A DNA stretch of 17,626 nt, from NCBI GenBank assembly GCA_014730235.1, contig WJIO01000040.1:1-17626 (forward strand). The letters are read 5' to 3'. The notes under the pieces are model-generated. The model was given only the letters and a program-made list of their open reading frames with translations, ran no database searches and had not been told where the DNA came from. The DNA is from Candidatus Poribacteria bacterium. Lineage in GTDB: Bacteria; Poribacteria; DTPJ01; WJIO01. A program made the position numbers and the translations under genes. Positions 2-16,689 of the stretch are shown piece after piece (the stretch's first letter is position 1; each line of letters starts with the position of its first letter).

Positions 2-2805
2 AGTATTGTTAAATATTCGGCTACCGGGAAAGACTCATACGGTAATATTATAGGCATTAACCCGAAATGGGAGATAAAAGGTCAGGATGTGGGTGAAATA
101 AGTTCAAACGGTCTGTTTATCACCAGAAAAGCTGGTGAAGCAAGAATCCGGGCCCAGTCGGGAAGCATAACCAGTGAAACTAAAATAAATGTAAATCCCG
201 GTGATCCCACTTATGTTAAAGTTGAGCCGGAAATTATTACCATATCAGAACAGTCATCAGAGAAAACAGTATTCACTATCAGAATATTTGACGCTTATGG
301 CAACGAGATAAATATTGATCCTGAAGATTTAAATACATCCTGGACAGTAACCGACGGAACAGGGATTATAGGCTTATCAACCGGCATATTCTCCCCGGAA
401 ACAGAGCCGCAGCTTCAGAAAAACGGATACGTTGTGGCAAGCGTTTCGCCGGATACAGAAACAATTCAGGAAAGAACAATAAGGGGAAGAGGTATAGTAA
501 TATATAAGTCAAAATCCACTCCACTGGAAAGCATAACCCTTTCGCCCAATCCTGCTGAAGTAATAAAAGGAGCAAAACAGCGGTTTACAGCCGCAGGACG
601 GGATTCTTATGGCACAGAATTAGATATAGCACCTGAATGGACAGTCATAAGCACTGATGGAAAAATTCAGATTAAAAACGCCATATCTCAGGACGGAACT
701 TTTTCCGCAACTCCTGAAATGGAAATTGGCTCTACATGGCGTGTTGTAGCTTCAGCGACTAACAGCCGGGAAGAGGTTATTACAGGCGAAGGAATAGTAA
801 ACATCACAGCCGGATCGCTGCAATCAATAGCAGTTACATGTGTTGATAATAAATGCGATAATCCTGTAAAATCAGGCAGCATAATTAATCTCAGCGTCAG
901 GGGATATGATCAATATGGCAACCTGCTTGATATTGAACCGGAATGGAAGTTAAGCCGGGATATAGGCAGTCTTGATAAATCTGTATTTACAGCAGGCAGA
1001 GCAGGATCAGGTGATATAATAGCCCAGGCCGGAGGTAAGGAAGGAAAAATACACATAGAGGTAACTCCCGGAGACTTGTCAGAAATAACCATTTCCTCAA
1101 CCCCAAAACCACTGGATAACGCAACCGGACAATCCTTTGACAGGCCAATGGTTATTAAATCAGGCGCAGAAGTTCGCTTTTCCGCCCAGGGTTATGACTC
1201 TGAAAGAGATGAAAACGGCATCCCTAAACCGGTCAACCAGATCAACATATCGCCTAAATGGTCTATAAATTCAGACACTGGGGAATTTTTGGGCAGCATT
1301 TCCACCTATGGGCGCTTTGTTGCCCAAAGTACCGGCAGCGGAGTTGTTAAAGCCGTATCTGGTTCAGTTGAAAGATCATTTTACATTCAGGTAATTCCCG
1401 GTGAACTTTCATTCATAAGGGTATCGCCGGCTGTTGCTTCTGCCACTGTAAATAATATACAGTTTTCAGCTGTCGGTTACGACAAAAACGATAATATTAT
1501 ACCAAAGATCAATCTCACATGGTGGGTGAATGGAAACATAGGGAGTATTGATAAAGACGGGATTTTTATGCCTGTTCAGTTACCTCCCGGAAGTCCGGGA
1601 ATATCGGGAACAATAGCGGCATCCTCAGAAGGAATACAGGGCAGCGCCAGTGTAGCGGTATTAGCCGAAATAGGGAAATTATTTAAAATAAAACTTACGG
1701 TTGAGCCATCAACCATACCGGCTGGCGGTCAGGCCGTATGCACAATAGCCGGAAACGATGAATCAGGAAACCTTATTAGCCAGATAACAGGGGCTTCCAT
1801 GCAAGTGCCATCGAACTTGGGAACGGCATCCAAGATTAGCGATAATGAATGGTTACTGCAATGTATCAGAAATTTATCGGATAATCCGGAAGAAAACACA
1901 GGATTAATAACAGCTTCTGTGGATGCAGAAGGAGAAACCCTGACTGACAGCATATCTATAAATATTGTACCAGGGAAGATCAGCAGGATTTCCATAGAAC
2001 CCCAGGAAATAAGCATTTCAGCAGGAACAGAATCAGTTTTCAAAGCCTTTGGCTTTGATATGTGGGGTAATCAACGCCCTCTGGGATCGCTGGAATGGAC
2101 ATTAACCCCGATTTCAGGTGATATTATGGATATAAACTCTCAGGAGGTAAAAATCAAGCCATATACCTCAGGTCAGGGACAATTGACGGCAAGATACCAG
2201 CTTTATGAGGGTATATCAGAACTGACAGTAACAGCGGCAGAACCCAGCAAATTGAATATAAATCCTGAAAAAGTTATCCTGGAAGCCGGTTCTTCCCAGA
2301 AATTCACATCTACAGGAACTGATTTATACGGAAACCGAATAGATGACATTTCTGTATCATGGCAAATCCAGGGCCAGCAAAAGGTAGGAGATATTACAAC
2401 AGACGGTATTTTCTCAGGTAAAAAAGCGGGAACAGCAAGGCTGAAAGCCGTCTATACGTACACAGGTGTTGAATCACCGGAAGCCAGTATAACGGTTGTT
2501 CCGGGAAGTCTGGCATCCATCCAGATAATGACCTATGGGGATGGAAATATTATAAAAGCGCCTTATGTATTTACTTCGGGAAGCTATTATGAAATGACGA
2601 TTTCAGGTCAAGATGCCTGGGGAAACAACATAGAAGATCCGGGGAAACCTTCGTGGGAAATAATGGGGGATATAGGAAATATAAACACATCACCCCAGAA
2701 CCCGGAAATATTTGATCTGCTAACCCTATTTCCGGTTCAGGGCAAAATATCCGCCAGTTCAGGGGATATATCATCAACTATAGAAGTTCAGGTCATACCC
2801 CATAT
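2..2805 (+). repeat. Ten divergent Ig-like (Big-type) repeats in protein
   Basis: Ten tandem protein-level repeats, the first cut by the window edge. Approximate unit boundaries fall at 205, 520, 810, 1075, 1400, 1670, 1977, 2245 and 2502. The units are recognisable only as protein (G.D.YGN core, W in the next strand, G.F turn). At the DNA level they are clearly diverged, unlike the repeats at 10245-13030, so this array looks old or diversified. The unit beginning near 1670 lacks the clear YGN/W pair and is the most degenerate. Confidence 0.75.
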
Positions 2806-3538
2806 CCATCAGGTTAACAGAGATAAAGGCGCTGATCTGACTGGCCCCCTTAACTCAAAGCTCTATATCCCTTCGGGTGCTTCTGATAAAGATACGGAAA
2901 TATCAATGTCCATCTCCGTATCACCAGCAAGTGGCTCAACAGAATCCCGCCAAATAGGTTATGTATACAGATTTGATCCATTGGGAACTATTTTTTCCAA
3001 ACCTGCCATTATAACTATACCATATTCTCTAAGTGATACAGAATCTAATGAAGATGAAATCAGCATATATTCCTGGGACATTTTCAACGAAAAATGGATC
3101 AGGGTTGGGGGCAATGTGGATAAACATCAGAAAACTGTGGCAGCATCCGTCAATTATCTGTCGTATTTTGCCATAATGAAAGACGATCAGATAACCCAGG
3201 ATATGGATCAGGAAGATGACCTGGAAATAGTTGACGCTATATTATCGCCAAATGCCTTCTTTGCCCCGGAGACAAACCGGCTTTCCATCATGTATAATAT
3301 AGTCAGCAAATCAGGAAAATCAATTGATGTCACCATAAAAATATACGATATACGGGGGAATCGGGTTAAGGAATTGCTGAATAAATCACCAAAGTATAAT
3401 GGATGGAATACAGACCAATGGAACGGCGAAGATGATTCGGGTGAAATTGTCAAGAACGGTCGGTATTTTGTTTTAATAGAAGCTGAATCCGGCGATAAAA
3501 AAGCCGGTAAGGTTAAACATCTGGCGGTCTTTAAGTAA
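2..3538 (+). CDS. Giant secreted Ig-repeat protein with C-terminal FlgD-type Ig domain (5' partial)
   Basis: The reading frame is open from base 2, and the residues before the GTG at 89 already fit the repeat pattern (SATGKDSYGN, then INPKW), so the gene starts outside the window. About ten Big-like units follow, each roughly 85-110 residues. They carry a recurring F.A.G.D.YGN core, an aromatic P.W, G.I...G.F, and a closing V.PG at about 200, 810, 1070, 1400, 1975 and 2500. From about 2800 to 3180 a ZU5-like region has IPSGA and FDPLGTIFSKPA. From about 3222 to the end lies a FlgD-type Ig domain (KIYDIRGN, WNGEDDSGEIVKNGRYFV). Such architecture is usual for surface adhesins or stalk-like proteins, and FlgD-like C-terminal domains are common in proteins crossing or anchored to the outer membrane. 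No enzyme motif is visible. The stop overlaps the next start (TAATG), so it is co-translated with a PorV-like barrel. Ligand and exact role are unknown. Confidence 0.9.
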   Translation, partial: SIVKYSATGKDSYGNIIGINPKWEIKGQDVGEISSNGLFITRKAGEARIRAQSGSITSETKINVNPGDPTYVKVEPEIITISEQSSEKTVFTIRIFDAYGNEINIDPEDLNTSWTVTDGTGIIGLSTGIFSPETEPQLQKNGYVVASVSPDTETIQERTIRGRGIVIYKSKSTPLESITLSPNPAEVIKGAKQRFTAAGRDSYGTELDIAPEWTVISTDGKIQIKNAISQDGTFSATPEMEIGSTWRVVASATNSREEVITGEGIVNITAGSLQSIAVTCVDNKCDNPVKSGSIINLSVRGYDQYGNLLDIEPEWKLSRDIGSLDKSVFTAGRAGSGDIIAQAGGKEGKIHIEVTPGDLSEITISSTPKPLDNATGQSFDRPMVIKSGAEVRFSAQGYDSERDENGIPKPVNQINISPKWSINSDTGEFLGSISTYGRFVAQSTGSGVVKAVSGSVERSFYIQVIPGELSFIRVSPAVASATVNNIQFSAVGYDKNDNIIPKINLTWWVNGNIGSIDKDGIFMPVQLPPGSPGISGTIAASSEGIQGSASVAVLAEIGKLFKIKLTVEPSTIPAGGQAVCTIAGNDESGNLISQITGASMQVPSNLGTASKISDNEWLLQCIRNLSDNPEENTGLITASVDAEGETLTDSISINIVPGKISRISIEPQEISISAGTESVFKAFGFDMWGNQRPLGSLEWTLTPISGDIMDINSQEVKIKPYTSGQGQLTARYQLYEGISELTVTAAEPSKLNINPEKVILEAGSSQKFTSTGTDLYGNRIDDISVSWQIQGQQKVGDITTDGIFSGKKAGTARLKAVYTYTGVESPEASITVVPGSLASIQIMTYGDGNIIKAPYVFTSGSYYEMTISGQDAWGNNIEDPGKPSWEIMGDIGNINTSPQNPEIFDLLTLFPVQGKISASSGDISSTIEVQVIPHIHQVNRDKGADLTGPLNSKLYIPSGASDKDTEISMSISVSPASGSTESRQIGYVYRFDPLGTIFSKPAIITIPYSLSDTESNEDEISIYSWDIFNEKWIRVGGNVDKHQKTVAASVNYLSYFAIMKDDQITQDMDQEDDLEIVDAILSPNAFFAPETNRLSIMYNIVSKSGKSIDVTIKIYDIRGNRVKELLNKSPKYNGWNTDQWNGEDDSGEIVKNGRYFVLIEAESGDKKAGKVKHLAVFK

Positions 3539-4422
3539 TGAAAAACCTGATGGTTAGAAACATAATATTATTCCTGATAATATCTATAATACCTGCGACA
3601 GCAAAGGCAGCCTTTACTGATGTGGAACTGGGGGCACGACCTTTAAGCATGGGAGCATCATTTGTGGCCGTAGCTGATGATAACAACGCCATATTCTGGA
3701 ATCCCGCAGGCCTGGAATCAGCTAGAAAAAAGGAGTTTACCGCGTCTTACATGGAATTATATGACATGGTAAGTTACAGCGCGTTAAGCTATATCCGAAA
3801 ATTCAGGGAAATTCCTGTGGGATTAGGATTGGTTAGTTCCAGCGATGTAGAGGGCGTTTACAGGGAAATAGGTTTGTATTTCTCCCTGGCCAGAAATATC
3901 AGGGATAAGCTGGATATTGGCACGAGTCTTAAATACCTATCATCAACGGCATATACGGCAAATATGAAGCTGGGAAACAGTCGGGGGTTATCCCTGGATG
4001 CAGGAATACAATACCATAACTGGCGAAACATATTGTCCTTCGGGCTTAATTTTCACAACATCCTGGGCCAGGTATCATACAACAGAAAATCAGTAAAGGA
4101 AATACCCGGAGAAAGTTACTGGCAGAGACCCGATTTTTCCTACAGGATCGGCCTGGCCGTTAATCCATTTAAAATGCCATCATACGCAAAATATACATTA
4201 GTTTCAGCCGAGATATGCGACGGTGATTTTCACCTGGGATTGGAGCGAAGTTTCTGGAATATATTGTCCTTAAGGGCAGGCCTGAGAACAGGTAATGCTC
4301 TTAACTGCGCTTTAACCGCAGGTTTTGGTTTACGCATGAACGCCCTCAGATTTGATTATGCCTATGTGGGCAGTAAATATGGAACGGAGACATCTCAATT
4401 TTCTGTTTCGATACGATTGTAA
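3538..4422 (+). CDS. PorV/UPF0164-like outer-membrane beta-barrel protein
   Basis: A 294-residue protein with a signal peptide: basic start, hydrophobic residues about 8-19, likely cleavage after AKA at 24. The mature N-terminus carries the signature of the PorV/PorQ/UPF0164 group, LGARPLSMGASFVAVADD followed by FWNPAGLE (about 31-60), as also seen in FadL relatives. The rest is alternating beta-barrel sequence ending in SVSIRL. In Bacteroidetes, PorV delivers type IX secretion cargo at the cell surface; whether this relative does so is inference. Its ATG overlaps the stop of the giant Ig protein by one base and the next barrel gene begins 12 bases downstream. That supports a joint role in export or surface attachment of the upstream protein. 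A generic hydrophobic-compound porin is the alternative. Confidence 0.8.
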   Translation: MKNLMVRNIILFLIISIIPATAKAAFTDVELGARPLSMGASFVAVADDNNAIFWNPAGLESARKKEFTASYMELYDMVSYSALSYIRKFREIPVGLGLVSSSDVEGVYREIGLYFSLARNIRDKLDIGTSLKYLSSTAYTANMKLGNSRGLSLDAGIQYHNWRNILSFGLNFHNILGQVSYNRKSVKEIPGESYWQRPDFSYRIGLAVNPFKMPSYAKYTLVSAEICDGDFHLGLERSFWNILSLRAGLRTGNALNCALTAGFGLRMNALRFDYAYVGSKYGTETSQFSVSIRL

Positions 4423-4434
4423 GCAGGTTTCAAA

Positions 4435-5670
4435 ATGATTCAGAAGTTTTTAAAGACACTAAAAATCTCCCTTAATCTCCCTTTAGAAAATGGAGAAACC
4501 TTTTATTTCCCCTTATTGAAAGTAAGGTTTAAGTTATACATTTTACTTGTATTATTCATTGTTTCACATCTGGCGATTCCAGCCCGGGCCAATGAATCGC
4601 TGCGGATAGCCGGAATGGGTGGGGCTTTCTCAGCAGTACAATATCCCGGGGCGTCTATTTTTGGGAATCCTGCGGGATTAACCAACTCTAGAAACAATAA
4701 CCTTTCAATGGGATTATCCACATATAATCTGGAATATAACAGCCTTCCTGTTTTAGAGGGAGAACAATCAAAGGCAAACTTATCCTTTGGTTTAAGGCCT
4801 TCATTATATTTTTCCAGAAATATAGGCAAAATCGGAATCAGTGTGGGATATATTTATGACATGAATAACCGAAACACCACCCTTACAGTCAAAGAAACCC
4901 TTGCCGAATATATCGTTGACGAGAGAAAATTTGCCTCAGAGACCGATGCAGTTCTTGAATATCATCTGGCCACCGAAAGTTCCCCGGTTATATCTGTAGG
5001 CTATCCAATTAACCCGGTTCTGTCTTTCGGAATAAGCCTGAGATACACCAGCCAGGTAATCAAAGAAGGTGTAATTAATAATCCCATGACTTTAACGGCA
5101 ATACACGGAGAGGATGTCAACCGCAACGACGCAACCAAACTTCTACCGGCTATTATTGACAACCTGGATGCGGGTGCAGCCATTGACGAATTCAGATCCG
5201 GTGAAAACAGTCAGGAGGAAGTCATAAAAGACCTGGGGGAAAAGGGATTTGATGTTGACCTGGGTATACAAACAAGACTCCCTCTTCCGGGAGATATAAT
5301 GGTGGGATTTACCATAAACAGGATTTTCCAGAAACAACTGGCTGACTCCAGAAACTCAAATATCAGACTGGGCATAGCAATATCACCTAAAAAATGGCTT
5401 TCCACAGCTTTTGATTACGGAAAGTATATGTATAAGGATGGAACCAGCATAAACCTGGGATGGGAGGTAAATCATAATTGGGAAAAGTGGTTTAAAGGCG
5501 GATTGATTTTCCGAAACGGAATATCCAGGGAATTTTCCCGAAATAAAATATCCGTAGGTATCGGTATTATTCTGGGAAGATCATACTGGGATTATGCCCT
5601 GGTGAAGGAATTAAACGGAGAATCAATCCTGAAGGCAAGCCACATGATCTCATCTACCACAAGGTTTTAG
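4435..5670 (+). CDS. Second FadL/PorV-like outer-membrane barrel protein
   Basis: A 411-residue protein. The mature part begins NESLRIAGMGGAFSA and then FGNPAGLTN (about 53-80), the same family signature as the preceding gene (GMGGAF, NPAGL). Alternating beta strands follow and the last residue is phenylalanine, typical of outer-membrane barrels. A hydrophilic, acidic stretch around residues 220-275 probably forms a long loop or periplasmic/extracellular insert. The signal peptide core is at residues 33-49 with ARA at 50-52, so about 27 residues lie before a normal signal peptide. That extra segment is encoded partly by a short tandem repeat (4464-4483). An in-frame TTG at 4516 would give a conventional signal peptide but has no visible ribosome site. 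The two barrels are paralogues in one operon; substrate or cargo is unknown. Confidence 0.75.
   Translation: MIQKFLKTLKISLNLPLENGETFYFPLLKVRFKLYILLVLFIVSHLAIPARANESLRIAGMGGAFSAVQYPGASIFGNPAGLTNSRNNNLSMGLSTYNLEYNSLPVLEGEQSKANLSFGLRPSLYFSRNIGKIGISVGYIYDMNNRNTTLTVKETLAEYIVDERKFASETDAVLEYHLATESSPVISVGYPINPVLSFGISLRYTSQVIKEGVINNPMTLTAIHGEDVNRNDATKLLPAIIDNLDAGAAIDEFRSGENSQEEVIKDLGEKGFDVDLGIQTRLPLPGDIMVGFTINRIFQKQLADSRNSNIRLGIAISPKKWLSTAFDYGKYMYKDGTSINLGWEVNHNWEKWFKGGLIFRNGISREFSRNKISVGIGIILGRSYWDYALVKELNGESILKASHMISSTTRF
4464..4483. repeat. Perfect 10-bp tandem duplication inside barrel gene 5' end
   Basis: AATCTCCCTT occurs twice back to back at 4464-4473 and 4474-4483. TCTCC at 4476-4480 can also pair with GGAGA at 4492-4496. 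The element encodes part of the unusual N-terminal extension (KISLNLPLENGE) before the signal peptide. It looks like a short dispersed intergenic-type repeat that landed in frame; dispersal elsewhere in the genome cannot be seen from this window. Confidence 0.6.
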
Positions 5671-5673
5671 CAA

Positions 5674-6582
5674 ATGTATATCTACATTACCCCAAGATCA
5701 GAGCAGGAAAAACATATAACAGAAGCCGAATGTATGGCCATAATCGGCGAAAAACCAGACGAAAACGGCCTTGTAATTTCTGATTTTGAAGCTGATATAT
5801 CAGGTGCAGCTTATATAAAAACGGCCATGAGAATTATTTTTCATGCCGCAAGCCTTGATGAATTATATAAAAAGCTGGAAGATTCTGATTTAAGCTCAGA
5901 TGGTTTCAGAGTAAGCGTTTTAAAAATCCCCCGAAGCCTCAAATATAGCTCAAGGGATATAATGCACAACACAGGTGCAAGAATAGCCGGTAAACCACAC
6001 CTCAATAACCCTAAAACAGTTTTTCTGGTGTTGATTACAAAAGAAGACATAAGGCTGGGTGAAGTAACATCCAAAGCCATTGGTGACTGGAACCAACATT
6101 CTCAAAAAGCTCACCTTTATTCCAGCGCCCTGCCAACGCGCCTGGCCAGGGGAATGATTAACCTTGTGGCAAAATCGGGAGACAGGATAATTGACCCATG
6201 CTGTGGATCAGGAACAATACTGGTTGAAGCCCTGAGCGCAGGTATGAAAGCAGCAGGATGCGACATTAACCCCAAAATGGCTGAAGCATCTATAGAGAAC
6301 CTGCGGCATTTTGGCATGGACTGCATGGTTCTTGTAGCCGATGCCAGAGACATAAAGGGCAGTTTCGACGCAGTTGTAACGGATTTACCTTATGGCCGAA
6401 ACTGTATGCTGGATGATCAATTATACCTGGATATATTGACTAATTTAAAGAACCTGGCCCCAAGAATATCCCTGGTGGTTCACGAAGACATAAGCCAGAT
6501 GCTCGGAAAAATCGGATATAAGGTGAAAAAAGTGATCCCTGTGCCCAAGACATCCCTGGTAAGGTATATACATCTGGCGTAA
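5674..6582 (+). CDS. THUMP-domain Trm11/UPF0020-type RNA methyltransferase
   Basis: A 302-residue protein resembling archaeal/eukaryotic Trm11-type tRNA guanine-N2 methyltransferases. Residues about 40-130 look like a THUMP RNA-binding domain: RVSVLKIPRSLKYSSRDI, then a NPKTVFLVLI strand. A Rossmann-type methyltransferase follows, with SAM motif I DPCCGSGTILVEA (174-186), acidic motif II CDINP (196-200) and motif IV DLPYG (237-241), where leucine replaces the first proline of the usual DPPYG. LPTRLARGMINL (153-164) is the helix that precedes motif I in this family. The likely reaction is SAM-dependent N2-methylation of a guanine in tRNA; the exact site (G10 or another) is inference. It begins three bases after the barrel gene with only a weak ribosome site, so it is probably coupled to the surface operon. 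It ends five bases before a convergent gene. Confidence 0.8.
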   Translation: MYIYITPRSEQEKHITEAECMAIIGEKPDENGLVISDFEADISGAAYIKTAMRIIFHAASLDELYKKLEDSDLSSDGFRVSVLKIPRSLKYSSRDIMHNTGARIAGKPHLNNPKTVFLVLITKEDIRLGEVTSKAIGDWNQHSQKAHLYSSALPTRLARGMINLVAKSGDRIIDPCCGSGTILVEALSAGMKAAGCDINPKMAEASIENLRHFGMDCMVLVADARDIKGSFDAVVTDLPYGRNCMLDDQLYLDILTNLKNLAPRISLVVHEDISQMLGKIGYKVKKVIPVPKTSLVRYIHLA

Positions 6583-8281: not shown

Positions 8282-9205
8282 CTATTTTTCCCACGCCATA
8301 ACTACACAATCCACGCCCTTGCGATTTACGGGCAGATCCAGATAGCAGGTAAGTTCCAGGGAATCGGCCTCATGTCTTAGAATTCCCCCCTGCCAGTCTA
8401 TGCAGAGCATGGATATTCTGCATCCCGGCTTTGCAACCCGGTGCATTTCCCGGAGTGCATGTTTTACCAGATAGTCGGTCTCCTCATGATAGGGAGGTTC
8501 AGTGGCAATTGCGTCAAAGGTTTCTGGTTTAAAGGGTAAACAGGCAGCATCGGCTACAGAGTGGTAATCGGCGATATGGTCCAGGCCATGTCTGAGGAAA
8601 TCGTCGGAATCGGTACTGAATACCCGATAGTTATTTGGAAAGGCCTCCAGAATAATCCCTCCGACACCGGCGAAGGGATCGAGAAAATTTTTATTTTCTC
8701 CTGGGGTAAATACCAGATTTGTCAGCAACCTCGCATCGCAAACTGGCAATCCCCGACGGCTCAGTAATCCACCATCGCCTCGGTATCCCCGGATAAATTT
8801 TACCTCACCCTCACAAATCTCCAGCATAAACTTTCTTCGGTCAGGTGCAAGCTTCCGTATACGTCTTTTGTCCTCTTCATATAGACGCACCAGCTTGTAA
8901 TAATCCCGCTTCCACTTTACCAGTTGCCTTCGGGATCGTTGTCTTGGGTTGGCAAGGGCTTCGGCAGGTTCCAGCATGTCCACAGCTTCTGTATAACCTA
9001 ACCTTTGCATTCGATCAACGGCATCGTCAATATGCTTCTGTGGTATATCTACCCAGAACACCTGACCTTTTTCCGACAAAGGCCCTCCTGATGGAATAAA
9101 TACACCCATATCCCGAAACAGGCACGATACCTCCATAATCGCCGCCTGTCGTGCTTTGCTTCGTGCTTTGCGTATGTAAAAAACCAGATGAATTATATCA
9201 GCCAA
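8282..9205 (-). CDS. UPF0020/Trm11-like methyltransferase with EPPY motif
   Basis: A 307-residue protein. The C-terminal half is a SAM-dependent methyltransferase: LPVCDARLLTNLV (153-165) precedes motif I DPFAGVGGI (176-184), then STDSD (197-201) ends the second strand, and motif IV is EPPY (236-239), with glutamate where Asp/Asn/Ser is usual. The order and the helix before motif I match Trm11/UPF0020 enzymes. The N-terminal half (1-130) is not a clear THUMP domain and ends in a very basic segment (NPRQRSRRQLVKWKRDYY, about 86-103), suggesting RNA binding. The start is TTG 9205, overlapping the LOG gene end by eight bases, with AAAGGA five bases upstream; no ATG fits better. It is the last gene of the tgt operon. 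Target RNA or DNA is unknown. Confidence 0.75.
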   Translation of the reverse strand: MADIIHLVFYIRKARSKARQAAIMEVSCLFRDMGVFIPSGGPLSEKGQVFWVDIPQKHIDDAVDRMQRLGYTEAVDMLEPAEALANPRQRSRRQLVKWKRDYYKLVRLYEEDKRRIRKLAPDRRKFMLEICEGEVKFIRGYRGDGGLLSRRGLPVCDARLLTNLVFTPGENKNFLDPFAGVGGIILEAFPNNYRVFSTDSDDFLRHGLDHIADYHSVADAACLPFKPETFDAIATEPPYHEETDYLVKHALREMHRVAKPGCRISMLCIDWQGGILRHEADSLELTCYLDLPVNRKGVDCVVMAWEK

Positions 9206-9736: not shown

Positions 9737-12700
9737 TTAAGGCTCTATCGTCCAGAGTAAATCTATATCTGAATAAATCATATAGCCTTTGTCTGGCTCT
9801 AAACTCTGTATCTCATTTATAGGAATAGGAGAATCAAATATTGTCTTTGACCAGGTTTTACCCAGGTTATTGAATGTATAAAAAGCTGAAACATCGGCGC
9901 TTAAAATATCCCCAATATTTACGTTAAAAGCGGAATCGACAGAGTTCCAACCCGGTAACAAACGTATCACATTATTTTCAACTATCCTTCCTATAAAGCT
10001 CAATACAGCTTCCTGCCGCATATCAAACCAATAGCCCCTACCAGACTCCAGGTTCTCAAGGGTATTATTATTCCTATCCGGTATGTAGCTAAGCCATGAT
10101 CCCGAAGTGTTGTCATAAGTCCATACAGCCCTGTATGATTCCGTTATAGATATTAGTAAATTACTAATTTCACTGTTTACCGGATCAAGGCTGAAAGATA
10201 TGTAATTCCACCCCTGATAAAGGTTTAAGTCCTTCCTTATCAATGATAAGTCAACAGTTATACCATCGGAAAAACCCGTTTCAGAAAATAATCCTGCCAG
10301 GTTTTTTGCCCTGACGGATATATAATATGTCTGACCATCAGTCAGGATAAGCCCATCAATTAACACTTCAGTAGCATCACCGGCATTGAACCAGTTACGA
10401 ACATCATCTATCCCTGGTTGCGTCCCCACAGCATATTCATAGTGAGAAAAACCCGATTCCAAATCCTGTGAAGGTGTTATCCATACATACAGTTCATCCG
10501 CAGAATCAGTATAGACACCGCTGTCATATACCACAGGCTTTGTGGGTCCAGTCTTATCAATATCTATCTCCTGTAGCTTATCCTCCTCCACATATCCCGC
10601 GTTGTCCTCAGAGCGATAATACACAGTAGAGCCTGAAATGACGAAGGGTACGGTATAATCCAGCCATTCGCCGTCGTTGATTCGATACTGAGTCTTTTTG
10701 ACGCCGGATATTTCATCCTCGGCAGTAAGGGTGACAGTTACGTCGGACAGATACCAGCCATTTTCTCCTTCAGTTCCCTCAAGTTCGATAGTGGTAACAG
10801 GGGGATTGGAGTCAACGGTTATACCGTCGGAAATGGATGCATCTGAGAGCAGACCTGCGTTGTTCTTGCCCTTGACGCTGACATAATAAGTCTGGCCTTC
10901 GTCAAGCTCTATGCCCTCCACATTTACCAGATCCCCCATACCCAGCCATGTCCAGTCAAGAACATCATTCTCACCGGATATTAATCCTACAGCATACATG
11001 TAACCCATTATACCCGATTCTACATCTTCCGAATGTGTCCATGATATGGTAATCTGGGCCGAAGAATTTATATATCCACCTCCGTCGTTGACTACAGGCG
11101 CAGAAGGAGGCGTCTTGTCTATATTTATATCAAGGGATTTTTCATCCTCAATATACCCGGCATTGTCCTCAGAATAATAATAAATTGTAGAACCTGAAAC
11201 TACAAAGGGTTCGGAGTAATCAATCCAGTCTCCATCATTGATTCGATATTGAGTCTTTTTGATACCAGAGACTTCATCTTCGGCATTAAGGGTGGCGGTT
11301 ACATCGGACAGATACCAGCCATTTTCCCCTTCCGTTCCCTCAATCTTGACAGTTGTAACAGGTGGATTGGAGTCAACAGTTATGCCGTCGGAACTGGCTA
11401 TATCCGAAAGCAGACCTGCGTTATTTTTGCCCCTGACGCTGGCATAATAAGTCTGGCTTTCATCAAGCTCTATTGCACTTTCCATAGAATTCACCATACC
11501 TACCCATGTCCAGCCCAAAACATCACTTCCGCCGGGTGTTGTGCCTATGGCATACATATATCCCGTTATGCCTGATCCTGTATCCTCTGAATCTGTCCAT
11601 GATATGATAACCAGGTTTGATGAATTTATGTAATCACCTTCGTCACTGACCTCAGGTGCAGTAGGCGGAGTTTTATCTATGTTTATAACCTGGGATTTTT
11701 CGTCTTCCAGATTACCAACATTGTCCTCTGATTTATAATAGACAGTAGATCCTGTAATATTAAAAGACTCAGTATAAACCAACCATTCTCCATCATTGAT
11801 TTTATATTGTGTTTCTTTTACACCAGAGACTTCATCCCATGCCGTAAGAGTTACCTCAACGTCTGATGTCCACCAGCCGTTTTGCCCTTGCTGACCTGAA
11901 AGCTGGATGGTGGTCTCAGGAGGAACAGTATCAACAGATATACCATCGGTGCTAGAGGTAAATGAAAATATACCAGCTTCATTTTTCGCCCTTACATTGA
12001 CATAATAAATCTCTCCATCCGCCAAATCCAAACCTGTTATATCTTTTTCCAGCACCAGACCTGCTGAAGTCCAGTCCATTACATCTGTTGAACCGGCAGA
12101 TTTACCCACAGAGATTTTATAATCTGCGATCTCCGATTCTTCATCCAGGGATTCTGTCCATGATACACTTAAAGTATCAGAAGCAGTATAATCTCCCTCA
12201 TCAGTAATAACAGGCATGGAGGGTCTTTTTGTATCTACTTTTACAGTCAGGGATTTTTCTTCCTCTGTATTACCTATATTATCCATAGATTTATAATATA
12301 TTACCGAACCGGATACAACAAAAGGTTCTGTATAAGTTGTCCAGCTACCTTCGTTTATCTTATATTGGATGTTATTAACCCCTGAATATTCATCAAAAGC
12401 CGAGAGGGTTACGGTTACATTTGATATATACCAGCCGTTTTCCCCCTCAGTTCCAACCAGTTGGACAGATGTAACCGGTGGGGTTATATCAACGGTTATA
12501 CCATCATCCACATCAACATCCGAAAACAATCCTGCGCTATTTTTTGCCCTTACCGCAGAATAATATGTAACGCCGCCAGTAAGATCAAGCCCATCAGCAA
12601 TAACGCTGGTATCAGTTCCCACTGAAGTCCATCCCCGGACATCGGTTCCGCCGGAAGTCGTTCCTATGGCATACTGATATTCGGCAAGACCTGATTCACC

Positions 12701-14644
12701 ATCATTGGATTCCGTCCAGGATATGCTGAGTTCTGTGGTAGAATTTGTAAAATCATCGTGTTCTGCAATATTGGGTTTAGTTGGGCCCGTTTTATCTATA
12801 TTCAGGGTTTCTGTTTTAAAGGATTCTGTATTTCCCGCGTTATCCTCAGCCCTGTATTTGATCGTAGAGCCAGTAACAATAAAGGGGTTGTCATATTCCA
12901 GCCAACCCTGATCGTTGATCTGATAATATATCTTCCATACACCTGAAAGATTATCTGTAGCGGAGAGGCTAACTTTCACATTTGATATATACCATCCATT
13001 TTCGCCGGATGTGCCGTCCAGAACGGCCGTTGTTTCGGGTGCTGTGCTGTCTATAGTAAAATTGCCGTTGCTGGTATCTTCCGTAATGGTTTCCATGCTG
13101 GCATCTTTTGCAATAACTTTGACTTTAACGCCGTCGGAATCTTCACTGGCTACAGGCTGCCACATATACGAACCGTCATCGTCAGTGCTGTTTACGACGG
13201 TTTTGTTATATGAAGAACCACCGTCGGTGGAATAGAGTATCTGTATGCTCTGTATGCCGCTTCCCTGGGATTGCCATGTTATTTCCCGATCCGAGCCGCC
13301 TTTCCATATTTCCTCTCCGTTGGGTGATAAAACCATAACGGTTGCAGAGGGTTCACCCAGGGTGTTTTCATAAGCACCCATATCAGGGGATGAACCAATC
13401 GGAGTTGGGCGTAGGGTGCCTTCAATATCCTGATCAGGCATATCAGCGACTGTGCTTCCTGCACCTATACACGGGCTTATATCTTTAAGACTATAGCCGG
13501 TAAATTCGGGATCAGCATCAATGTTACCTGTATTCCAGTTAAGGGTTCCACCATCTTCAATTACAACGCCGGATTGGCCACCTTCCACATCCGAATATGA
13601 TATGGTTGCAGAACAGGGCGGCTCTGAATCGTCAATATCATAAAACGGTAAAAAATGTATGGATGTAGGCGGATCAGGGCTTAAAAATATCTCCTGCGGC
13701 GGATTATCCCAGAGTATTGTATTTTCAATAGTTGGGTGACAATCACCGTAACAGTGAATTCCTCCACTTCCGGAGCTTGTGTTGTTGGATATGGTATTAT
13801 TGATCAATTTTGGGGATGAATGTAATGTTATATTAACAGCCGAACCTTCATCACCGGAATTATAAACGATCACATTATTGGCAATTAACGGAGATGAGTA
13901 TTCTATACAGCGAATACCACCACCTCCCAGATCAGCCGAATTATACATTATGGTATTATTGGTTATTTCAGGATCTGACAAATGAGCGCATGATATTCCT
14001 CCGCCGTATCCTGTAACGTTGTTAAGAGTAATTACATTGCCATCTATTACAGGATCACTTATAGAGTTACAGCGGATTCCCCCGCCCACCACAGCCACAT
14101 TCTCCTGGATCGTGTTGTTGGTTATAGTCGGCGAAGAACGGTCATCACAACGAATACCCCCGCCAGCATTTTCAGCCCAGTTATCTATTATTATATTATT
14201 ATTTATTGTGGGAGATGATTCGTTGATACATTCAACAGCACCTCCACATCCTGCGGGCCAATCGCCTGTAACCCTACCGTTGGTTATGGTAAAGCCTTCC
14301 AGAACAGAATTTTCATCCTCACCACTGGAAAACTGAAAGGCCCGACCGCTGTCCTGACAATCTATAATACAGTCATCCGGGCCGTTTTGGGACTTGACGG
14401 TGATGGCCTTACCTGCGAAATCCATATCTCGGTTCTGCTCCCCGGTGTATGTGCCGTCCAGCACCATCACCGTATCGCCATTAACGGCTGCATCTATACC
14501 CTCCTGTATATATCGATAGGGATTGGCAAAGGAGCCATCCCAAGGGCCTGCGTTGTTGGCATCGTCAACATATATAATATCTGCATAAACACCTCCAGCC
14601 GTTATGGATATCAATATTATTATATATATAAATACAGATTTCAT
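9737..14644 (-). CDS. Giant secreted beta-helix + OmpL47/FN3-repeat protein
   Basis: A 1635-residue protein. A signal peptide (1-21, ending VYA) is followed by IYVDDANNAGPWDGS and a YIQEGIDAA segment typical of DUF1565/pectate-lyase-like helices. Residues about 140-315 are a right-handed beta-helix of 26-27-residue coils (SSPTITNNTI, GGGIRC), closed by a PCIGAGS...DMGAYE segment (391-425). An Ig-like domain (about 435-530, LSPNGEEIWKGGS) leads to five alternating pairs of OmpL47-like (ENGWY...SG...GSTIYY...DNAGN) and FN3-like (SISWTES...YAIGT...YYSVRAKN.AGL.S) units, residues about 539-1468. Two C-terminal modules begin YQGWNYISFS (about 1475) and LPGWNSVDSAF (about 1565). It is probably exported and surface-exposed, possibly binding or cutting polysaccharide; no catalytic residues can be assigned. 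GGAGGT (14648-14653) supports the start. The upstream lipoprotein gene ends 27 bases before it. Confidence 0.9.
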   Translation of the reverse strand: MKSVFIYIIILISITAGGVYADIIYVDDANNAGPWDGSFANPYRYIQEGIDAAVNGDTVMVLDGTYTGEQNRDMDFAGKAITVKSQNGPDDCIIDCQDSGRAFQFSSGEDENSVLEGFTITNGRVTGDWPAGCGGAVECINESSPTINNNIIIDNWAENAGGGIRCDDRSSPTITNNTIQENVAVVGGGIRCNSISDPVIDGNVITLNNVTGYGGGISCAHLSDPEITNNTIMYNSADLGGGGIRCIEYSSPLIANNVIVYNSGDEGSAVNITLHSSPKLINNTISNNTSSGSGGIHCYGDCHPTIENTILWDNPPQEIFLSPDPPTSIHFLPFYDIDDSEPPCSATISYSDVEGGQSGVVIEDGGTLNWNTGNIDADPEFTGYSLKDISPCIGAGSTVADMPDQDIEGTLRPTPIGSSPDMGAYENTLGEPSATVMVLSPNGEEIWKGGSDREITWQSQGSGIQSIQILYSTDGGSSYNKTVVNSTDDDGSYMWQPVASEDSDGVKVKVIAKDASMETITEDTSNGNFTIDSTAPETTAVLDGTSGENGWYISNVKVSLSATDNLSGVWKIYYQINDQGWLEYDNPFIVTGSTIKYRAEDNAGNTESFKTETLNIDKTGPTKPNIAEHDDFTNSTTELSISWTESNDGESGLAEYQYAIGTTSGGTDVRGWTSVGTDTSVIADGLDLTGGVTYYSAVRAKNSAGLFSDVDVDDGITVDITPPVTSVQLVGTEGENGWYISNVTVTLSAFDEYSGVNNIQYKINEGSWTTYTEPFVVSGSVIYYKSMDNIGNTEEEKSLTVKVDTKRPSMPVITDEGDYTASDTLSVSWTESLDEESEIADYKISVGKSAGSTDVMDWTSAGLVLEKDITGLDLADGEIYYVNVRAKNEAGIFSFTSSTDGISVDTVPPETTIQLSGQQGQNGWWTSDVEVTLTAWDEVSGVKETQYKINDGEWLVYTESFNITGSTVYYKSEDNVGNLEDEKSQVINIDKTPPTAPEVSDEGDYINSSNLVIISWTDSEDTGSGITGYMYAIGTTPGGSDVLGWTWVGMVNSMESAIELDESQTYYASVRGKNNAGLLSDIASSDGITVDSNPPVTTVKIEGTEGENGWYLSDVTATLNAEDEVSGIKKTQYRINDGDWIDYSEPFVVSGSTIYYYSEDNAGYIEDEKSLDINIDKTPPSAPVVNDGGGYINSSAQITISWTHSEDVESGIMGYMYAVGLISGENDVLDWTWLGMGDLVNVEGIELDEGQTYYVSVKGKNNAGLLSDASISDGITVDSNPPVTTIELEGTEGENGWYLSDVTVTLTAEDEISGVKKTQYRINDGEWLDYTVPFVISGSTVYYRSEDNAGYVEEDKLQEIDIDKTGPTKPVVYDSGVYTDSADELYVWITPSQDLESGFSHYEYAVGTQPGIDDVRNWFNAGDATEVLIDGLILTDGQTYYISVRAKNLAGLFSETGFSDGITVDLSLIRKDLNLYQGWNYISFSLDPVNSEISNLLISITESYRAVWTYDNTSGSWLSYIPDRNNNTLENLESGRGYWFDMRQEAVLSFIGRIVENNVIRLLPGWNSVDSAFNVNIGDILSADVSAFYTFNNLGKTWSKTIFDSPIPINEIQSLEPDKGYMIYSDIDLLWTIEP
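10245..13030 (-). repeat. Five tandem OmpL47+FN3 repeat units of 558-561 bp
   Basis: Aligned landmarks in the WY-S-D/N-V strand lie at 10742, 11303, 11861, 12419 and 12980, giving periods of 561, 558, 558 and 561 bases (186-187 residues). Units 4 and 5 (about 10450-11560) are similar in DNA over long runs, for example GACAGATACCAGCCATTTT in both, while units 1 and 2 are more diverged. This points to recent duplication at the 3' side of the gene. The array is coding and in frame throughout. Confidence 0.85.
13710..14230 (-). repeat. Beta-helix coil repeats with cysteine ladder
   Basis: Seven coils begin with S-[SD]-P or HP at residues 143, 170, 196, 223, 250, 276 and 303, spaced 26-27 residues (78-81 bases). 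Each carries an N-N-x-I turn. Coils end in GG[GA]-[IV]-x-C, with cysteines at 139, 166, 192, 219, 246 and 298; the coil before 276 lacks the cysteine. They should stack as one face of a parallel beta-helix. Confidence 0.75.
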
Positions 14645-14671: not shown

Positions 14672-15418
14672 CTACTGTTGTGGATCAGAAGTACCAATAA
14701 CGCCGTCAAGCCTTGCTTCCTGCATTAACCAGCCGTTTTCTACTCTATCGCCGGGAATTATTACAAAGGTTATCATATAGCGACCCGGTCTGGTGATAAC
14801 GTTTGATACATCCAGGTTCCTGATAGTTATAACATCTGTGGAAGGCTGTTCGCCGCCTATGGCCATATTATCCAGAACGACAGTCTGATTAACATATATG
14901 CTGAGAAAAGCGTCATTTCTATCCATATCCTGGACTATTTCATAATGTATAAACACCTTGCCAGTTTCTATTGACTTAACGTTTACATCATAGGCCAACT
15001 CGTCTTCGTAAGACGTTGAGGGCCAGTGGGTATCCCTGTCCATAATTATAGACTCTACATCCTGCTGACTGACGTTGATTTCAATAGTCTTTTCATCGGA
15101 AATAACCCCGTCACTTACTCTAAGATTGATAGAATAAACTCCGGGACTGTCGGGTGCGATATATGTGGCTCTATTGTCATCCCCTTGTATTGTTCCACCA
15201 GTCGCGCTCCATTTATAGAGTAAGACAGTCTCATCGCCGGTATAATCAACCAACGCCTGTATAGTTGCGGTTCCCCCTGTGCTCATTGATGATTGGGAAG
15301 CGTCCAGGGATATTATATCCAGGGTTTCAACGAATATAGGCAAATCCTCGCCGCAGCCAACAATAATAACCATAGCAAGCAAACATATAACAAGGGCGAC
15401 ATTAAATTTGTTTTTCAT
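14672..15418 (-). CDS. PKD/Ig-like lipoprotein
   Basis: A 248-residue protein with a lipoprotein signal peptide: basic start, hydrophobic core 8-20, lipobox IVGC with cysteine 22, followed by GED. Aspartate is not at +2, so outer-membrane sorting is plausible. Residues about 35-115 form a PKD/Ig-like domain (GGTATIQALVDYTGDE, then YKWSATGGTI and GVYSINLRVSDG). Residues about 120-245 are a second beta-rich domain (FIHYEIVQDMDRNDAFLSIY, then GRYMITFVII) that I cannot assign. AGAGGT upstream of ATG 15418 supports the start. It lies between tgt (11 bases) and the giant beta-helix gene (27 bases), so it may be the membrane-anchored partner of that secreted protein; this is inference from order and shared Ig-type modules. 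Confidence 0.85.
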   Translation of the reverse strand: MKNKFNVALVICLLAMVIIVGCGEDLPIFVETLDIISLDASQSSMSTGGTATIQALVDYTGDETVLLYKWSATGGTIQGDDNRATYIAPDSPGVYSINLRVSDGVISDEKTIEINVSQQDVESIIMDRDTHWPSTSYEDELAYDVNVKSIETGKVFIHYEIVQDMDRNDAFLSIYVNQTVVLDNMAIGGEQPSTDVITIRNLDVSNVITRPGRYMITFVIIPGDRVENGWLMQEARLDGVIGTSDPQQ

Positions 15419-15429
15419 AAGATACCTCT

Positions 15430-16689
<1,260 letters not shown>

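Follow-up and report, generated by a model that had tools for sequence, protein, structure and literature searches.

On balance, and by analogy with SprB and SprF, a truncated giant Ig-repeat protein and two outer-membrane barrels, encoded one after the other on the forward strand at positions 2-5670 of the window (the whole stretch of DNA analysed, 17,626 nucleotides, spanning all of contig C393), probably constitute a cargo/carrier operon of a type IX-like system, in which a single cargo would be served by a dedicated PorV-family carrier or anchor. The initial annotation had proposed that the two barrels export this one protein or hold it at the surface. This idea was borne out in so far as the first barrel is PorV-like, cargo-barrel pairing recurs and the cargo co-occurs with the barrels, while the tandem arrangement of barrels beside the cargo proved not to be fixed.

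The source genome is a Candidatus Poribacteria MAG of 5.53 Mb in 451 contigs, 91.6% complete, and the best named relatives of the tRNA-guanine transglycosylase gene at 15430-16578 of the window all belong to Candidatus Poribacteria (77, 66, 64 and 63% identity). A methyltransferase gene of the TIGR01177/UPF0020 type (5674..6582, +) starts 3 bases downstream of the second barrel and is possibly co-transcribed with the three genes; it was rejected as a part of the module, as relatives do not keep it beside that barrel. This methyltransferase (127 bits) and a second one at 8282-9205 (-; 41 bits) both match TIGR01177 below its cut-off of 316.55 bits. Further along, a protein of 1635 aa is encoded at 9737-14644 (-); its N-terminal part is NosD-like, and it also has a choice-of-anchor Q domain together with five repeats of the OmpL47 type. 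Adjoining it at 14672-15418 is a gene for a PKD-domain protein with a lipoprotein-like signal. A profile scan of the window ORFs placed a FlgD-type C-terminal domain (CTD) in neither of these two proteins.

The candidate type IX cargo (2..3538, +) is represented by the C-terminal 1178 aa of a giant surface protein with Ig repeats of the Big_2 type (Big_2 match, 33.7 bits). Since the window is the whole contig and the ORF is open at its 5' edge, the true N-terminus of the protein is missing; full-length orthologues in three other genomes (G035, G023 and G016) measure 2308-2854 aa, and the 1178 aa of the window align to their C-terminal half. The protein ends in a FlgD-type Ig domain (3248..3535, +), a candidate sorting domain, which scored 29.3 bits against FlgD_ig within the ORF and 31.2 bits as an isolated CTD (cut-off 27). 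This domain stops 14 residues before the C-terminus of the cargo, and an alignment of the orthologues displays a VVFK-like tail at their end. Adjoining the CTD is a ZU5-like domain (2825..3073, +; 20.6 bits, cut-off 21), also found in an orthologue, and in reduced cargo forms of about 350-430 aa in family f3 the ZU5 domain and the CTD are the sole parts kept. The isolated CTD gave 23.8 bits with CHU_C and 20.1 bits with Por_Secre_tail, both with cut-offs of 27, and the cargo CTD fell short of the cut-offs both for type A sorting domains (PF18962, 20-24 of 27 bits; TIGR04183, 17.8 of 23 bits) and for type B sorting domains (PF13585, 24 of 27 bits; TIGR04131, 16.5 of 35 bits).

The TAA stop of the cargo and the ATG of the first barrel share one base (AAG TAATG). 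This junction, together with the profile matches, confirmed the initial reading of a giant repeat protein with a FlgD-type Ig end overlapping a PorV-signature barrel by one base. The barrel itself, barrel 1 (3538..4422, +), has 294 residues with a hydrophobic signal at the N-terminus, and passed the PorV/PorQ family model NF033709 with 105.1 bits against a cut-off of 90. It lies far under the cut-off of the PorV equivalog NF033710 (37.8 of 250 bits) and is therefore to be regarded as a paralogue, a member of the family and not PorV itself. Neither the PorP/SprF models (TIGR03519, 14.1 of 90.55 bits; PF11751, 20.4 of 22.3 bits) nor the FadL-type transporter model PF03349 (15.4 of 29.7 bits) reached its cut-off with barrel 1, and a profile of the barrel 1 family matched PorV with an E value of 5.9e-31 versus 7e-4 for FadL. 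The predicted structure (pLDDT 85) came nearest to PorV in the SprA translocon, at Z 32.0 for 8gl6_F and Z 31.0 for 6h3i_F, with FadL-type channels at 29.7 or below, and one of these nearest PorV chains derives from a RemA-CTD-bound complex. By profile and by predicted fold barrel 1 is thus an outer-membrane barrel of the PorV family, and as such a candidate carrier, and its assignment as a true FadL transporter was rejected on the same profile scores and fold.

The absence of any other type IX component, pointed out by the initial annotation, holds for the window and not for the genome, where homologues of both Sov and PorU were found by a genome-wide search. A Sov/SprA homologue of 2297 residues is encoded on contig C368 (L084:6643-13536); it matched TIGR04189 with an E value of 9e-54 and SprA_N with 28.3 bits (cut-off 27), and we refer to it as a homologue rather than a certified equivalog because its total of 182 bits with TIGR04189 is just under the curated cut-off of 200. 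Such a homologue was found in 57 of 58 Poribacteria genomes. The protein carries a LysM domain at its N-terminus (38.8 bits) and may thereby be linked to peptidoglycan. Four C25 peptidases are encoded in the genome, three of them PorU-like: one, on contig C261, reached 460 bits with NF033707 (cut-off 420) and two more scored 397-410 bits. On contig C26 a PorU-like gene is directly followed by a PorV-family gene, and PorU-PorV-like arrangements, consisting of a CTD protein of 2091-2147 aa and a barrel of the same clade as the C26 pair, were present in three other genomes (G010, G035 and G047). PorV-like barrels number about 20 in the genome and proteins with a FlgD-Ig end about 50; these ends mostly lie 12-25 residues from the C-terminus, many scoring above the cut-off of a type IX sorting model. 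PorM (GldM) gave no match above the cut-off in the source MAG, 92% complete, and PorL (GldL) none in 56 genomes, the weak matches to both resembling those in control genomes; this pattern would suit a divergent motor as well as a missing one. The profile search also returned one OMP_b-brl_2 match. Since Sov/SprA and PorU homologues are present, and even though PorL and PorM went undetected, the suggestion of a reduced or different system is not supported. What emerges instead resembles a type IX system whose set of PorV-family carriers is enlarged, in a phylum for which we found no report of one.

Pairing of FlgD-Ig proteins with PorV-like genes was then not peculiar to the window. Within the source genome, a CTD gene stands directly upstream on the same strand of 8/22 PorV-like genes and downstream of one more; in four further genomes, drawn from three families, it lies directly upstream of 17/65 and directly downstream of 6/65, whereas about 0.7% per gene would be expected by chance (under 1% per gene and side). 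All pair counts, like the counts of CTD classes, depend on the output of a simple gene caller and of profiles made here from the same genome. Orthologous clades of barrels mostly retain the pairing. Among those that do are the PorU-PorV clade and clades with cargos of about 2260-2310, 2270-2310, 690-1046 and 470-481 aa; PorU and its PorV-family barrel are already known as the core machinery of attachment, and the other kept pairs look dedicated. None of 10 paired CTDs reached the type A Por_Secre_tail cut-off, as against 18 of 25 unpaired ones, and several paired CTDs scored higher on the type B model. The PorP/SprF model, too, picks up two of the paired barrels, with scores under its cut-off. 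Pairs of a CTD cargo and a PorV-family barrel, mostly with the cargo first, thus recur throughout the phylum. With respect to conservation in relatives, such pairs are kept and the three-gene order of the window is not.

Two observations were made in passing during the survey of these loci. On contig C249 a 5436-aa protein (L076:2279-18589) with a type B-like CTD (CHU_C, 46 bits) is flanked by a PorV-family barrel on either side, the downstream one having a C-terminal TPR-like stretch and matching the PorP/SprF model with 39 bits (cut-off 90.55). Secondly, a C-terminal tail, V.P..KL.TTWG.[IL]K, recurs across several Poribacteria genomes at the end of proteins about 180-460 aa long, most of them 220-290 aa; it was seen in 24 distinct ORFs out of 1582 in the loci examined (for example L097:2475-4133, L228:9610-11444 and L279:11317-12141) and is not a type IX CTD.

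The locus itself is differently organised in relatives. Four genomes from four other families (G023, G035, G057 and G016) have the two barrels side by side, the giant not being beside them; genus g6 has barrel 2 by itself in unrelated genomic surroundings, barrel 1 not being seen next to it. In G001, a genome of the same taxonomic order as the source genome, the barrel 2 orthologue is preceded at a distance of 2 bases by an N6_N4-type DNA methylase gene (L225:3063-3560) in place of barrel 1. No PorV-like barrel was found beside the full-length giants of G035, G023 and G016 or beside the reduced forms of family f3, and the reduced cargo in genus g6 likewise has no adjoining barrel. The adjacency of cargo and barrel in the window was seen only in its own genome, and the three-gene order was thus rejected as a conserved operon, relatives keeping the giant and the barrel pair at separate loci. 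The operon of the window unites parts that are kept separate in relatives.

These parts are nevertheless inherited together. Across 56 genomes, cargo orthologues and barrel 2 were both present in 21 and both missing from 32, with one genome holding only the cargo and two only the barrel (Fisher p 4e-12, relatedness not corrected for); two of the three discordant genomes (G001 and G036) are fragmented or less complete assemblies. On a tree of Sov homologues, all six of the independent barrel 2 contrasts were matched by the cargo in most random pairings, with a median p of 0.031, the lowest value attainable with six pairs. As this tree is long-branched at its base, the contrasts within genus g6 weigh most, and here 16 genomes had both cargo and barrel 2, 8 had neither and 2 were discordant. 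The orthologues of barrel 1 form one clade, which was absent from both genomes checked for it, G010 and G047, each of which is also without cargo and barrel 2. The giant and the barrel pair lie apart in relatives and yet co-occur; the link between them is therefore one of co-inheritance and not of fixed gene order. That the parts of the operon tend to occur or be missing jointly across the phylum suggests that each giant has its own carrier, with none shared.

The main rival to this reading is that the cargo, as an ordinary substrate of type IX secretion, uses the general PorV of the cell, that encoded beside PorU on contig C26, and that the adjacent PorV-family barrels do another job, having come to lie next to the cargo by a chance rearrangement in this lineage. 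It would accommodate the confinement of the three-gene order to one genome, the barrel pairs without adjoining cargo in four families and the solitary barrel 2 of genus g6, and it is also consistent with more than half of the PorV-like genes having no CTD neighbour. Against it, however, cargo and barrel 2 co-occur almost without exception and are lost concordantly, the cargo-then-barrel order is habitual across the phylum, and cargo and barrel 1 overlap translationally; we consider this rival unlikely.

Barrel 2 (4435..5670, +) has orthologues in other Poribacteria and matches to the PorV family and BamG models below their cut-offs (20.3 of 90 bits for PorV/PorQ, 18.9 bits for BamG); it had no match to the FadL-type model PF03349, and a single-protein query against named genomes returned nothing. 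The gap of 12 bases between the barrels, noted at the outset, stands if the first ATG (4435) is taken as the start and falls if the probable start, TTG 4516, is the true one; the latter is favoured because the orthologues are shorter by about 32 aa and because the pLDDT of the structural model stays below 50 over most of its first 50 residues. The relatedness of barrel 2 to PorV, likewise noted, is weak. Its predicted structure (pLDDT 81) fits FadL, TodX, PorV and BamG in a near tie (Z 25-29), and sequence profiles assign it to no family, every family score being below the cut-off. A role as a second PorV was thus rejected, for want of any above-cut-off support and in view of this tie, and from sequence and model barrel 2 is placed as a barrel of the FadL/PorV/BamG superfamily, without finer assignment. 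A grouping with true FadL transporters, envisaged beforehand as an alternative for both barrels, consequently fails for barrel 1 and leaves barrel 2 in a tie. On another view, barrel 2, and perhaps barrel 1, would transport hydrophobic small molecules in the manner of FadL or else act in assembly as BamG does, the giant being an adhesin or surface-layer protein merely co-regulated with it. While the even structural fit of barrel 2 and the indecisive profiles are in keeping with this, the scores of barrel 1 point to PorV and not to FadL, and joint gain and loss with one surface protein would be unexpected for a general transporter, so that we regard this possibility as distinctly improbable. 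That the FlgD-type Ig domain is simply the last Ig repeat, devoid of a sorting role in a protein exported by another route, is very hard to credit: FlgD_ig is widespread outside type IX secretion in control genomes and the cargo CTD lies below the type A and type B cut-offs, but about 50 proteins of the genome end in FlgD-Ig, many above the sorting cut-off, Sov and PorU homologues occur in the phylum, and the ZU5 and CTD end alone survives in reduced forms of the cargo.

In the cargo/carrier reading that we prefer, the giant Ig-repeat protein would be taken to the periplasm by Sec and would cross the outer membrane via the Sov/SprA homologue encoded elsewhere in the genome. Barrel 1, the PorV-family barrel dedicated to this cargo, would receive the C-terminal Ig domain and remain bound to it, keeping the giant at the cell surface in the way that SprF keeps SprB. 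The same unit would contain barrel 2 as a further subunit, of the FadL superfamily, which might serve as another anchor or help in assembly. Gene order, the family assignments of barrel 1 and the cargo CTD, the homologues of Sov and PorU, recurrent pairing and the joint occurrence of barrel 2 with the cargo were observed; secretion, binding, anchoring and stoichiometry, as well as this role of barrel 2, we infer.

Poribacteria are an uncultured phylum known for sponge symbionts. No report on type IX secretion in Poribacteria was found in the open-access literature, a scope outside which lay most subscription papers and all bioRxiv preprints, and type IX genes have been listed for the FCB phyla alone, other phyla being stated to be without them (PMC11285876). 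The near-universal Sov homologue, with PorU-type sortases and PorV-like barrels where examined, would extend type IX secretion to this phylum. Conserved pairs of an Ig-type CTD and a PorV-family barrel would show that dedicated carriers arose within the PorV family too, and would offer many natural pairs in which signal recognition by the carrier could be tested. Tentatively, and with less than even confidence, we propose that Poribacteria use a third type IX export logic, in which FlgD-like Ig C-terminal signals each have their own PorV-family carrier (about 15-20 paralogues) and one giant has a carrier of two tandem barrels, in a phylum so far unlisted for type IX secretion and possibly lacking the canonical PorL/PorM motor.

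Dedicated carriers encoded downstream of their cargo have precedent (PMC12618676, PMC9143113, PMC12635249). The locus resembles SprB/SprF and other type B CTD cargo with PorP/SprF-like carriers of Flavobacterium johnsoniae (PMC12618676, PMC9143113) in having a giant repeat surface protein with a terminal CTD and a gene for a FadL-superfamily barrel directly downstream. It differs in that barrel 1 is a PorV/PorQ-family (105 bits) and not a PorP/SprF-family protein (14 bits, cut-off 90.55), in that the cargo CTD scores higher on FlgD_ig than on the type B model, in its two tandem barrels and in its phylum. With FadL, TodX and BamG both barrels share the superfamily fold, and barrel 2 is structurally about as near to these as to PorV; in contrast to them, barrel 1 has no above-cut-off FadL support in its sequence and barrel 2 is below every family cut-off. 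The PorV-type fold and family, the Ig-like CTD and the PorU-then-PorV gene pair on contig C26 are features in common with PorV and PorU-PorV of Porphyromonas gingivalis and F. johnsoniae. In F. johnsoniae, however, the Ig-like type A signals use one PorV in common and dedicated carriers serve only type B (PMC12618676), whereas here there are many PorV paralogues, several of them each tied to one cargo.
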